Positions 21,157 to 61,793 of a stretch of DNA of 64,000 nt are shown here, piece after piece. Made by a program: the position numbers and the translations under genes. The notes beneath the pieces are model-generated. The model was not told where the DNA came from. It saw nothing but the letters and a program-made list of their open reading frames with translations, and ran no database searches. Origin of the DNA: Acinetobacter pittii (GTDB lineage: Bacteria; Pseudomonadota; Gammaproteobacteria; Pseudomonadales; Moraxellaceae). Numbering within the stretch: the stretch's first letter is position 1; every line of letters begins with the position of its first letter. The stretch lies in contig NZ_CP139286.1 of assembly GCF_034067285.1 (NCBI RefSeq), positions 558,001 to 622,000 of the forward strand, written 5' to 3'.

Positions 21157-21208
21157 AACATGCTCCATACATTCACCCCACGTGAATGATCGGGTAGATA
21201 GATGAAAC

Positions 21209-21390
21209 AAGTAGGTCTCCGGACTTCAGCGCCATATTTATGTTATGGACATATTCACCTTCCCACATGACTGCAGTGGTGTAAGTCGCTCTCGACTTAA
21301 AAAATATGCTTTACATTGTTACCGTTGCGGGGGCAGTGCCGGACTTTCACCAGCTTCCCTAAAGCATTAATTGCTTACACTTGCTTCCAA
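21209..21390 (-). ncRNA. Cobalamin riboswitch controlling btuB
   Basis: On the reverse strand this region contains GGTGAAAGTCCGGCACTG, then CCCCCGCAACGGTAA, and near the 3' end GAAGTCCGGAGACCTACTT, all conserved parts of the AdoCbl riboswitch aptamer. The order and spacing of these blocks (about 180 nt overall) fit the class. It ends about 40-50 nt before the btuB start codon, so adenosylcobalamin binding should lower BtuB expression, probably at translation initiation since no intrinsic terminator follows. Confidence 0.95.
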
Positions 21391-21525
21391 TTTTACGCAG
21401 TATAAAGTGACGATTTATTTCATACAATGTCATTTAGCCCAATTCCCAGAGAACTTTTACGCAAGGGGCAAAAATTGCATTACAATGGCGCTTATTTTAA
21501 GAAATGGTTGTAGTTTAAACAGCTC

Positions 21526-60176: not shown

Positions 60177-60335
60177 TTACCAAATACCTTTCTTCAATTG
60201 CTGTTTAGTATCTTGTCTATCTTTACGATGTTGGGCACGAGGTTTTTCCGTTTCATGCATCCCACCTTTATGAAGTAAAGGGGATAGAGCTACTTGATTA
60301 CGGACTTTGATTTTTGACATTTCTTTAATTTTCAT
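60177..60335 (-). CDS. Small basic protein (52 residues) coupled to rtcB
   Basis: A small ORF on the reverse strand encoding MKIKEMSKIKVRNQVALSPL, then LLHKGGMHETEKPRAQHRKDR and a basic tail ending GIW. It begins two bases after the rtcB stop, and the AAAGG Shine-Dalgarno for it lies in the last codons of rtcB, so the two are translationally coupled. The protein is rich in Lys, Arg, His and Gln, has no signal peptide or membrane helix, and could bind nucleic acid. The R-N-x-(V/L)-A-(L/V)-S-P-L-L-(R/H)-K-G-G pattern looks like a small conserved family I have seen in proteobacteria without an assigned role. An alternative start is the Met at residue 6 (MSKIKVRN). Confidence 0.65.
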   Translation of the reverse strand: MKIKEMSKIKVRNQVALSPLLHKGGMHETEKPRAQHRKDRQDTKQQLKKGIW

Positions 60336-60337
60336 GT

Positions 60338-61543
60338 TTAGCCTTTAATACATAAAACTTGTTTAAGAGTGTGAATAACTTCAATGAGGTCAGCCTGATT
60401 TGCCATGACTTCATCAATATCTTTATAAGCACTTGGGATTTCATCGACAACACCACTGTCTTTACGGCATTCAATACCTTGGGTTTGTTCAATAAGATCT
60501 TGCTGGTTAAAAAGAGTTTTTGCCTTGCTTCGACTCATCTTGCGACCTGCTCCATGAGAGCAAGAACAAAATGATTCAGGATTTGCCTTGCCTTTAACGA
60601 TATAAGATCGTGCTCCCATTGAGCCAGGAATAATTCCTAATTCATCTAAGCCTGCTCGAATTGCACCTTTTCGGGTAATCAATAGATTTTCACCAAAATG
60701 TGTCTCACGGCTCACATAATTATGATGACAATTAATCGCTTCTTTTGTCATTTGAAAAGAAGGTAAAAGGGGGCGGATAGCTTCTAATATTAAACGCATC
60801 ATCTCTTTGCGATTTTCAAAAGCATACTCTTGCGCCCACTCTACAGCTTCTACATAATCATCAAAACTGTTTGAGCCTTCGGCAAAATAACTTAAGTCTT
60901 TATCTGGAACATGGCCAAAGCGATGTTGAGCTTCTTTTTTGGCTAACTCAATAAAATAAGTACCAATAACATTGCCAAGTCCTCTGCTGCCAGAATGTAG
61001 CATCACCCATACGTTTTGATTTTCATCAATACATAACTCTATAAAGTGGTTACCACCACCTAAAGTCCCAAGCTGCTTTTGCCATGTTGCATCAAATTGT
61101 CGAAGCATACGAACAAGGCCAGGATGCTTTTTGATAATTGGCTCTAAGCGTTTTTCAAGTGGAATAATGCTGGAAGCCTTTGCCTTAACCTGTTTATGTA
61201 AAGCAAAGCCAACCGGGACTTTGCGTTCGATTGCATCGCGTAAACGACTTAAATTATCAGGTAATTGTGAAGCCTTTAAACTCAAGCGAATTGCATTCAT
61301 ACCACAACCAATATCTACTCCTACAGCGGCAGGAATAATGGCGTGTTTAGTTGGAATAACACTACCTACAGTTGCGCCTTTTCCTAGGTGAACATCAGGC
61401 ATAACAGCAATATGTGAATATATAAATTGCAGTTGAGCCATTTTTTTGAGTTGTTCGATACTTTCACTATCTATATCTTGAGTGAAAATTTTAACAGGGA
61501 CACCGTAGAGTGCCTCCTTGTTTAATATTTTTTGTATGCCCAT
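60338..61543 (-). CDS. rtcB: RNA-splicing ligase RtcB
   Basis: GTP- and Mn-dependent RNA ligase (401 residues from the chosen start) that joins 2',3'-cyclic-phosphate or 3'-phosphate ends to 5'-OH ends in RNA repair. Motifs: MPDVHLGKGATVGSV, VGVDIGCGMNAIRL with the metal-binding Asp and Cys, LGTLGGGNHFIELC, LHSGSRGLGNVIG, and CSCSHGAGRKMSRSKA with the catalytic guanylylated His. I used the ATG at 61543 (MGIQKILNK) with AGAGA upstream; the frame up to 61576 begins in the T run of an upstream terminator. It is preceded by an unusual structured leader and followed by a coupled small basic protein. No rtcA or rtcR gene is adjacent. Confidence 0.95.
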   Translation of the reverse strand: MGIQKILNKEALYGVPVKIFTQDIDSESIEQLKKMAQLQFIYSHIAVMPDVHLGKGATVGSVIPTKHAIIPAAVGVDIGCGMNAIRLSLKASQLPDNLSRLRDAIERKVPVGFALHKQVKAKASSIIPLEKRLEPIIKKHPGLVRMLRQFDATWQKQLGTLGGGNHFIELCIDENQNVWVMLHSGSRGLGNVIGTYFIELAKKEAQHRFGHVPDKDLSYFAEGSNSFDDYVEAVEWAQEYAFENRKEMMRLILEAIRPLLPSFQMTKEAINCHHNYVSRETHFGENLLITRKGAIRAGLDELGIIPGSMGARSYIVKGKANPESFCSCSHGAGRKMSRSKAKTLFNQQDLIEQTQGIECRKDSGVVDEIPSAYKDIDEVMANQADLIEVIHTLKQVLCIKG

Positions 61544-61576
61544 AATTTTTTCTCTTATTTTTGTCCGAGCAGGCAT

Positions 61577-61603
61577 AAAAAAACCTAGCGAATGCTAGGT
61601 TTT
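61577..61603 (-). terminator. Intrinsic terminator immediately upstream of rtcB
   Basis: AAAACCTAGC and GCTAGGTTTT pair around ATTC (on the reverse strand) and run into seven T, ending next to an in-frame ATG (61576) 33 bases before the chosen rtcB start. It points into rtcB, so it must be bypassed or regulated for rtcB transcription from upstream. Confidence 0.85.
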
Positions 61604-61673
61604 AAATTTAAGCATTCGGACAAGTGGTGTGAATTTGTACACTTGTCCGTGAGCTGACATCGTGCCAAATTAT

Positions 61674-61703
61674 TTAATCTGTTTTACCTTGTAGTGTTGG
61701 CAT
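61674..61703 (-). CDS. Nine-codon leader peptide MPTLQGKTD ahead of rtcB
   Basis: Reading leftwards from 61703, ATG CCA ACA CTA CAA GGT AAA ACA GAT TAA encodes MPTLQGKTD. It is preceded by AAGGAGG with five bases of spacing, a perfect Shine-Dalgarno. Its start codon lies within an 11-base stretch that can pair with GGCACGATGTC downstream of the ORF. Nothing is known about the peptide. Its likely role would be to couple ribosome position to folding of the leader, which is inference. Confidence 0.55.
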   Translation of the reverse strand: MPTLQGKTD

Positions 61704-61759
61704 GATGTCCTCCTTATTTAAAAGTGCCGTTGAAAATCTGAACGGCATTTTACGCTTTT

Positions 61760-61793
61760 TTAATCAAAGATCAAGCTTTTGATCTTTGATTAA
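61760..61793. terminator. AT-rich 15-bp inverted repeat between lysP and the rtcB leader
   Basis: TTAATCAAAGATCAA (61760-61774) and TTGATCTTTGATTAA (61779-61793) are perfect arms around GCTT. There is no T run on the reverse strand. Its left part also provides the -35 element of the leader promoter, so it may be an operator or a weak lysP terminator. Confidence 0.5.

Follow-up and report, generated by a model that had tools for sequence, protein, structure and literature searches.

The RNA ligase gene rtcB of Acinetobacter pittii is preceded by a leader that is probably a transcription attenuator of the rtcB operon, reading the position of the ribosome on a tiny open reading frame (uORF); the single details of this reading are held with less confidence than the reading as a whole. 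The leader itself is real and conserved and is very probably regulatory for rtcB, and it is the same RNA as the published small RNA AbsR28. If true, this would explain why rtcB is the top tigecycline-induced gene of Acinetobacter baumannii, it would recast AbsR28 as the product of an attenuator, and it would provide a testable explanation of how bacteria time the production of the RNA ligase RtcB.

The leader and its parts

The window, that is the whole stretch of 64,000 nucleotides that was analysed, carries rtcB and its leader on the minus strand, and its RtcB is 98% identical to those of A. calcoaceticus ANC 3811 and A. pittii. An Rfam scan of the whole window placed the leader in the AbsR28 family (RF02606) with 180 bits over model positions 1–180, above the gathering cut-off of 50. 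Elsewhere in the window, at 21193–21399 on the minus strand, there is a cobalamin riboswitch (RF00174, 80 bits). The parts of the rtcB locus are as follows.

61747..61774, minus strand: sigma-70-type promoter by sequence pattern, with a −35-like TTGATC (61774–61769), 16 nt and TAAAAT (61752–61747)
61560..61739, minus strand: AbsR28 (RF02606) match, 180 bits, equal to the terminated leader RNA plus the first bases past the terminator
61709..61715, minus strand: Shine-Dalgarno sequence (SD) of the uORF, AAGGAGG, five bases before the ATG at 61703
61674..61703, minus strand: uORF of nine codons, MPTLQGKTD, with stop codon TAA at 61676–61674
61698..61709, minus strand: segment 1, the 5' arm of helix P1, spanning the uORF start codon
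61656..61671, minus strand: segment 2, the 3' arm of P1 (61667–61656) and the partner of segment 3 (61671–61656)
61632..61649, minus strand: segment 3, comprising the hairpin 1 loop and the arm 5' of it; its alternative partners are segment 2 (helix 2:3) and segment 4
61612..61626, minus strand: segment 4, the 3' arm of hairpin 1 (61626–61617) and the 5' arm of the antiterminator (61618–61612)
61577..61603, minus strand: segments 5 and 6, the intrinsic terminator with seven T; its GCATTCG (61595–61589) is the antiterminator partner
61561..61568, minus strand: another TCGGACAA ahead of the start of rtcB, with complementarity to TTGTCCGA in segment 4
60338..61543, minus strand: rtcB, RNA ligase (PF01139), with a longer frame starting at 61576
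60177..60335, minus strand: small gene of 52 aa, two bases after rtcB

All elements which an earlier note on this DNA had named are present in the letters of the minus strand where it had put them. These are the promoter-like sequence, the nine-codon ORF with its SD, a pairing around the ATG (P1; GACATC-A-TGCCA at 61709–61698 with TGGCA-C-GATGTC at 61667–61656), a perfect hairpin (CGGACAAGTG at 61649–61640 with CACTTGTCCG at 61626–61617), a terminator pointing into rtcB (AAAACCTAGC-ATTC-GCTAGG at 61603–61584 followed by seven T at 61583–61577) and a further CGGACAA near the rtcB start (61567–61561). As a pattern alone the promoter is weak, since a scan found 4 such sites and 6.1 were expected from shuffled sequences; among the upstream sequences listed, TTGATC is replaced by TTGACC or TTGACA in many relatives. 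The region 61560–61740 folds at −52.3 kcal/mol compared to a mean of −29.3 for its shuffles (z −6.7; as good in 0 of 200). The terminator sequence CCTAGCATTCGCTAGG is unique in its own genome as an exact match, with one further site at two mismatches. A simple terminator scan reported two sites elsewhere (1.4 expected) and not this one, probably because part of the T tract is taken up by its stem, so that too few T remain.

AbsR28 was described from prediction, Northern blot and RACE as an RNA of 180 nt that was seen in the growth phases tested and maps between a hypothetical gene and one for a lysine permease (PMC3976366), and was annotated at 203 nt in RNA-seq of strain AB5075 (PMC5320573). 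The earlier note had offered a stand-alone small RNA as an alternative to attenuation, which is literally true as the terminated leader is AbsR28 seen in these experiments; the two readings of the leader are compatible. Later work treats AbsR28 as an Hfq-aided trans-acting sRNA (PMC11796373, PMC12455925), the former, a study from 2024, crediting it with a Mn2+-dependent repression of tssM; in the text of that study rtcB, intergenic, terminator and RNA ligase were looked for and not found. Locus, length and sequence family are the same as for the leader, but in the published passages found AbsR28 figures as a stand-alone, genus-specific sRNA with rtcB, uORF and attenuation unmentioned, whereas our model of the leaders (R1, see below) finds them beyond the genus. 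In A. baylyi base substitutions within or near the predicted AbsR28 homologue have been reported in five of six lines of one deletion strain (PMC11426457).

Searches of open-licence PubMed Central text for rtcB together with transcription attenuation, or with a uORF or terminator in bacteria, yielded no paper, and one may exist elsewhere. Those for rtcB with "leader peptide" led to two reviews on the armZ leader PA5471.1 of Pseudomonas (PMC12057347, PMC13041342). The statement of the earlier note that no rtcB leader of this kind had been described has to be corrected, since Rfam contains AbsR28 and since for the RtcB-like armZ a leader peptide has been described and attenuation proposed.

Linkage of the leader to rtcB

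In 175 genomes of the genus the AbsR28 model matched 97 at E 0.001 and 72 over the cut-off. An RtcB protein match was found in 81 genomes, of which 78 have the rtcB type studied here (81–100% identical; in two pieces in G119), the other three having only the paralogue (G020, G157) or a remnant (G038). The leader stands upstream of rtcB in all 78, in 75 as found by script and in G070, G076 and G148, which have an insertion between terminator and rtcB, as found by reading. Six of the 97 other genomes keep a leader (G007, G030, G038, G100, G153 and G084), with a weaker remnant in G157 counted as absent. This gives a co-occurrence of 78/6/0/91 for both, leader only, rtcB only and neither (Fisher 4e-43 over 175 genomes with kinship ignored). 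By eye, such a leader is absent from three upstream regions of the second rtcB paralogue.

The small gene was found in 75 of the 175 genomes. A relative of its protein, from G007, has no match in Pfam or NCBIfam, and all named database relatives are from Acinetobacter. The 52-aa protein is basic, and its gene stays beside the leader where rtcB has been lost.

These counts bear on the view that AbsR28 is primarily a trans-acting, Mn-dependent sRNA repressing tssM with Hfq and RNase E, its position before rtcB being incidental and its uORF unused. Calorimetry of Mn2+ binding, in vitro pairing with tssM and increased expression of T6SS genes in the deletion mutant (PMC11796373) speak for this view, as does the persistence of leaders in the six genomes without an intact rtcB. 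In these six, however, the leader precedes the small gene of the same operon, and the leader tracks rtcB, not tssM (PF06744; found in 110 of 175 genomes), for which the corresponding numbers are 56/28/54/37 (Fisher 0.35, kinship ignored). Also the retention of the uORF and of helix 2:3 despite sequence drift, shown below, argues against it. Furthermore, the published seed A27–A30, which was mutated in PMC11796373, coincides with the SD of the uORF by our count on relatives, so that a seed change in a cell would also stop uORF translation. Deletions of absR28 and seed mutations should thus be read with caution, as they also hit the uORF and a neighbouring operon. Altogether we consider it unlikely that this trans-acting role is the primary one, and we return to the attenuator.

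Retention of the uORF

From the genus 84 leaders were collected, 83 of them by a script which missed G119 (seen by reading); the script required a uORF with SD and pre-filtered for a stop within 5–20 codons, and the following numbers have to be read with this selection in mind. The SD agrees with AGGAGG in six of six bases in 66 leaders and in five of six in 17. The start codon is ATG in 82 of 83, with GTG in G030, one of the genomes without rtcB, and the stop is TAA in 74, TGA in seven and TAG in two. Nine codons are found in 69 leaders, ten in nine, eight in two, seven in two and 17 in one (G148), meaning that a uORF of 7–10 codons with a strong SD is kept in 82 of the 83. An independent filter recovered an SD-uORF in 75 of 78 leaders, the other three being found by reading. 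When only clade representatives are counted, 19 of 19 stop at 7–10 codons, compared to 3.65 expected and a maximum of 11 in 20000 base shuffles.

In contrast to this the encoded peptides drift freely (MPTLQGKTD, MPLQLGTTP, MLTLENTTN, MLKQERNFK). Judged from these sequences, it seems to be the translation of the uORF and not its peptide that is retained. An amino-acid attenuator of the trp or his type was considered as well and rejected because of the drifting peptides and the absence of a shared codon run.

A predicted chain of alternative helices

For the comparison of the arms across Acinetobacter, which the earlier note had proposed as a check, we compiled an aligned set (A1) of 40 leaders out of 46 representatives, leaving out G148 and five leaders without rtcB. 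A scan of A1 found hairpin 1, the terminator, P1 and the nearly invariant CGAATGC/GCATTCG, plus a helix 2:3 absent from the earlier note, in which the bases after the stop codon including the 3' arm of P1 pair with the 5' arm and loop of hairpin 1. Nearly the whole of segment 2 (AAUUUGGCACGAUGUC) can pair with GGACAAGUGUACAAAUU in the window. P1 (1:2), 2:3, hairpin 1 (3:4), the antiterminator (4:5) and the terminator (5:6) form an odd/even chain, and the switch of the earlier note, hairpin versus antiterminator, was incomplete in that helix 2:3 is its missing link.

P1, 2:3 and hairpin 1 covary between clades. Native pairs beat pairs crossed between species in 85% (P1), 86% (2:3) and 87% (hairpin 1) of cases, with controls at 39–48% (45 representatives), and the nearly invariant terminator arms, at 31%, give no cross-species signal. 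With 32 and with 19 clade representatives the native mean of the three helices exceeds all 20000 cross-clade permutations (p = 5e-5), and with eight representatives p is 0.003 for P1, 0.0003 for 2:3 and 0.0016 for hairpin 1. For the control pairs 1-3 and 2-4 native pairing does not exceed all permutations. The control pair of segments 1 and 4 has p of 0.09, 0.04 and 0.006 in three Acinetobacter sets, a signal that a likeness between segments 1 and 3 would produce and that may also reflect a real helix. Examples of compensatory changes in 2:3 are AAAUUAAGC/GCUUAAUUU in G075, UACAGCAA/UUGCUGUA in G065 and AAUGAAGC/GCUUCAUU in G081 and G082.

For helix 4:5, which is nearly invariant in Acinetobacter, covariation within the genus carries no information since the terminator sequence hardly varies. 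Outside the genus the terminator stem changes (CCCCGGCATTCGCCGGGG in L167) and GCATTCG stays. Of the helices that would link the ORF to the terminator by mutual exclusion, 1:2, 2:3 and 3:4 covary here and 4:5 only in other leaders, and equilibrium folds do not give a full switch.

As a paired element the second CGGACA before rtcB has no covariation signal, its native pairs beating 48% of the cross pairs, and one matching double change was seen in G047. It is altered in some rtcB genomes (G017, G081, G082, G121) and was not seen in five leaders without rtcB, G038 retaining one next to what is left of its rtcB. Ahead of the start of rtcB, TTCGGACA persists despite insertions of about 200–250 bases separating it from the terminator in G070, G076 and G148. 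A pairing of a post-terminator ATGCC with segment 2 was dropped after reading its variants.

Ribosome position and proposed mechanism

With its start left free, helix 2:3 begins between −3 and +7 of the first base of the stop codon in 74 of 82 leaders (earlier in seven, later in one). Counted from the stop codon onward it starts 27–35 nt downstream of the A of the start codon in all 82, a range whose lower limit is built in as segment 2 was cut at the stop codon. G148 with its 17-codon uORF was dropped from the covariation, geometry and ribosome-state tests. The folds with a ribosome assume a footprint of 15 bases each way. In an RNA just long enough to contain segment 3, all 82 leaders form helix 2:3 when a ribosome sits at the start codon; 19 of the 82 do so without a ribosome and none with a ribosome at the stop codon, the last number being largely due to the assumed footprint.

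For RNA reaching into the terminator loop 83 leaders were folded (81 from Acinetobacter, L164 and L166; G148 and G065, which has no GCATT, were left out). With a start-held ribosome the mean for 2:3 goes up from 0.25 to 5.54 pairs, and that for 3:4 goes down from 8.73 to 5.21. The mean for 4:5 is 5.63 pairs in the free RNA, 5.94 with the ribosome at the start and 4.82 with the ribosome at the stop; 4:5 is larger start-held than stop-held in 38 leaders and smaller in three, and compared to the free RNA it is larger by 0.5 in 25 and smaller in five. Under a coarser segment choice L164, L165 and L167 reversed this trend, with L164 and L166 in agreement in the finer folding. In the window itself hairpin 1 beats 2:3 at this length (0.1 pairs for 2:3).

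At full length and equilibrium the terminator of the window wins in every ribosome state modelled, so that any switch must be kinetic or assisted. Among the other full-length cases listed clear departures were seen only for L229, with 5.4 pairs in the terminator and 2.5 in the antiterminator when start-held, and for L165, where both values are low. The pairing of CGAATGC (61618–61612) with GCATTCG (61595–61589) proposed in the earlier note is present, but its mutual exclusion with the hairpin was overstated, only the two bases CG being shared. A classical switch of hairpin against antiterminator was rejected for the same reason, and as the terminator has a predicted probability of 1.0 whatever the ribosome does. 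Before the 3' arm of the terminator is made the antiterminator reaches 0.94.

We propose the following model. The sigma-70-type promoter would make the leader RNA, and with no ribosome bound P1, hairpin 1 and the terminator would form, leaving only the 180-nt AbsR28 RNA. During normal translation the ribosome would end at the stop codon on the edge of segment 2 and cover this segment, again allowing 3:4 and 5:6. A ribosome held at or near the start, by drugs of the tetracycline class or other early stalls, would instead cover segment 1 and leave segment 2 free for 2:3. Formation of 2:3 would delay or abolish hairpin 1, the antiterminator 4:5 would gain time and RNA polymerase would read into rtcB and the small gene. 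As segment 2 begins at the stop codon, the leader would detect early-stalled ribosomes and tie RNA repair to translation arrest. The first half of this cascade is well supported, and its last step is in the Acinetobacter form still a proposal.

Published expression data fit a response to translation stress. In A. baumannii 6772166 treated for 30 min with 2.5 µg/ml tigecycline, the strongest induction of all genes, 252-fold, was that of rtcB and of its immediate downstream neighbour AB57_3343, the small gene (PMC7652931), and minocycline increased rtcB 2.6-fold (PMC9741440). We take the induced rtcB to be the gene studied here because the small gene lies next to it and because G006 has only one rtcB; the published AbsR28 probe is present in the leader of G006 and in those of its near relatives. 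The suggestion of the earlier note that rtcB is attenuated and responds to translation stress thus gains support from the comparison as well as from these inductions, and we infer that read-through of the terminator would be their cause. Under severe desiccation rtcB_2, which may be either of the paralogues, was up in strain Tol 5 (PMC13130816).

Tigecycline might also act via a transcription regulator or RNA stability, the leader then being a terminated 5' region without any switch. Such an explanation would agree with the dominance of the terminator at equilibrium, with the report that flanking gene transcripts were unchanged after deletion of absR28 (PMC11796373) and with a 15-bp palindrome that overlaps the −35 region in the clade of the window (61760–61793). 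This palindrome was, however, absent by reading from more distant leaders among those listed, and an explanation without a switch leaves the uORF retention, the covarying 2:3 and the recurrence of the chain in other leaders unexplained, which makes it improbable in our view.

Leaders outside Acinetobacter

We searched for the proposed attenuator outside the genus using R1, a model of the 40 aligned leaders. Among 42 loci it recognised a leader immediately upstream of rtcB in a gammaproteobacterial MAG, Alkanindiges, a Neisseriaceae bacterium and Moraxella cuniculi (E 1e-15 to 2e-6), with only E 0.013 for Agitococcus. In 299 genomes of the family it gave ten matches outside the genus (G183, G185, G197, G199, G209, G215, G217, G227, G280, G346). 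M. cuniculi apart, no such leader was seen in the Psychrobacter and Moraxella regions among those listed.

A scan of 369 gammaproteobacterial genomes gave a match in 126, and the best 29 rtcB loci besides the window were examined. Eight of them have leaders of the same plan (L228, L229, L232, L233, L235, L238, L247 and L255, from six families by handle), one has a variant (L231) and in 20 none was recognised; three named MAG loci (L202, L204, L205) bring the same-plan leaders to 11 loci in all. In L231, apparently a shorter variant, segment 4 seems to serve as the 5' arm of the terminator, an arrangement that would invert the logic of the chain. As this locus does not fit the chain, the chain test was run without it. 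Rfam at gathering scores named no leader in 16 loci scanned, and R1 found none in the eight loci, L202 and L204, and gave E 0.12 for L205. An example of the plan is L232 with GGAGACU, AGUCUCC, GGAGACU, AUCCGG, CCCGGAU and CUCCGGG as its segments in order.

In 15 loci none of 20000 permutations reached the native pairing of 1:2, 2:3, 3:4 or 4:5. For the 11 loci without likeness to AbsR28 p is 0.00125 for 1:2 and 0.00005 each for 2:3, 3:4 and 4:5, where 3:4 is inflated as the border between segments 3 and 4 was set by the strongest hairpin. The loci had been chosen for having an ORF and a terminator, the reading frame of L235 was chosen by eye, and L232 and L233, L247 and L255 as well as L202 and L204 share families. 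Pairs 1-3, 2-4, 2-5, 1-5 and 3-5 gave no signal in the same loci; the control pair 1-4 did, with p 0.0007 (15 loci) and 0.0009 (11 loci).

The predicted 4:5 pairing is larger start-held than stop-held in 11 of 11 loci (for example 10.8 vs 0.0 in L232 and 8.7 vs 0.0 in L233). Without a ribosome some loci have little of this pairing (0.5 in L255, 2.8 in L232), whereas others equal or nearly reach the start-held value (12.9 in L204, 9.4 in L202, 7.8 in L229; also high in L205), so that an empty leader is not predicted to be off in L202, L204, L229 and L205.

This last behaviour would also be expected if the signal were damage of ribosome or RNA, such as the loss of the anti-SD end of the 16S rRNA, sensed as failed initiation on a strong SD. 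RtcB does repair such RNA (PMC9741440) and the 83 leaders have a nearly perfect SD. In Acinetobacter, however, the RNA without a ribosome forms P1 and has 2:3 in only 19 of 82 leaders, meaning that failed initiation should keep the gene off, and we regard this signal as very unlikely.

For the ribosome-position reading we see an even chance that it extends to a widespread and so far undescribed class of gammaproteobacterial rtcB leaders measuring the ribosome position on a short ORF. Its Acinetobacter form would be on only with a start-held ribosome and off with an empty or a fully translated ORF, with AbsR28 as a by-product of the off state.

Relation to known attenuators

In Gram-positive attenuators of the erm, tet(M) and vmlR type a ribosome held on a short ORF decides which helix forms before the terminator. 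These control resistance genes, whereas here an RNA-repair gene is found behind a six-segment chain in Gammaproteobacteria.

The closest parallel is PA5471.1-PA5471 (armZ) from Pseudomonas aeruginosa, where a constitutive short leader ORF (13 aa, PMC3516279) and a terminator precede an RtcB-like gene. Like the induced rtcB, armZ responds to ribosome-targeting drugs, and in its leader an early amber codon activates and full translation gives the terminator (PMC12057347, PMC13041342); the attenuation is still called proposed (PMC12057347). The leader in the window shares with this type a short ORF with SD between promoter and terminator, the translation of this ORF being putative, and an intrinsic terminator before the controlled gene. 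By analogy the rtcB leader may work like that of armZ, but they differ in gene subfamily, segment number and distribution. ArmZ, an anti-repressor of MexZ, belongs to another RtcB subfamily (NF007153, for which RtcB of the window scores 188 compared to a cut-off of 407), and its leader is drawn with segments 1–4 instead of a chain of six. In L257 a 13-codon uORF with SD was observed 136 bases before an RtcB-like gene of the armZ-like NF007153 family.
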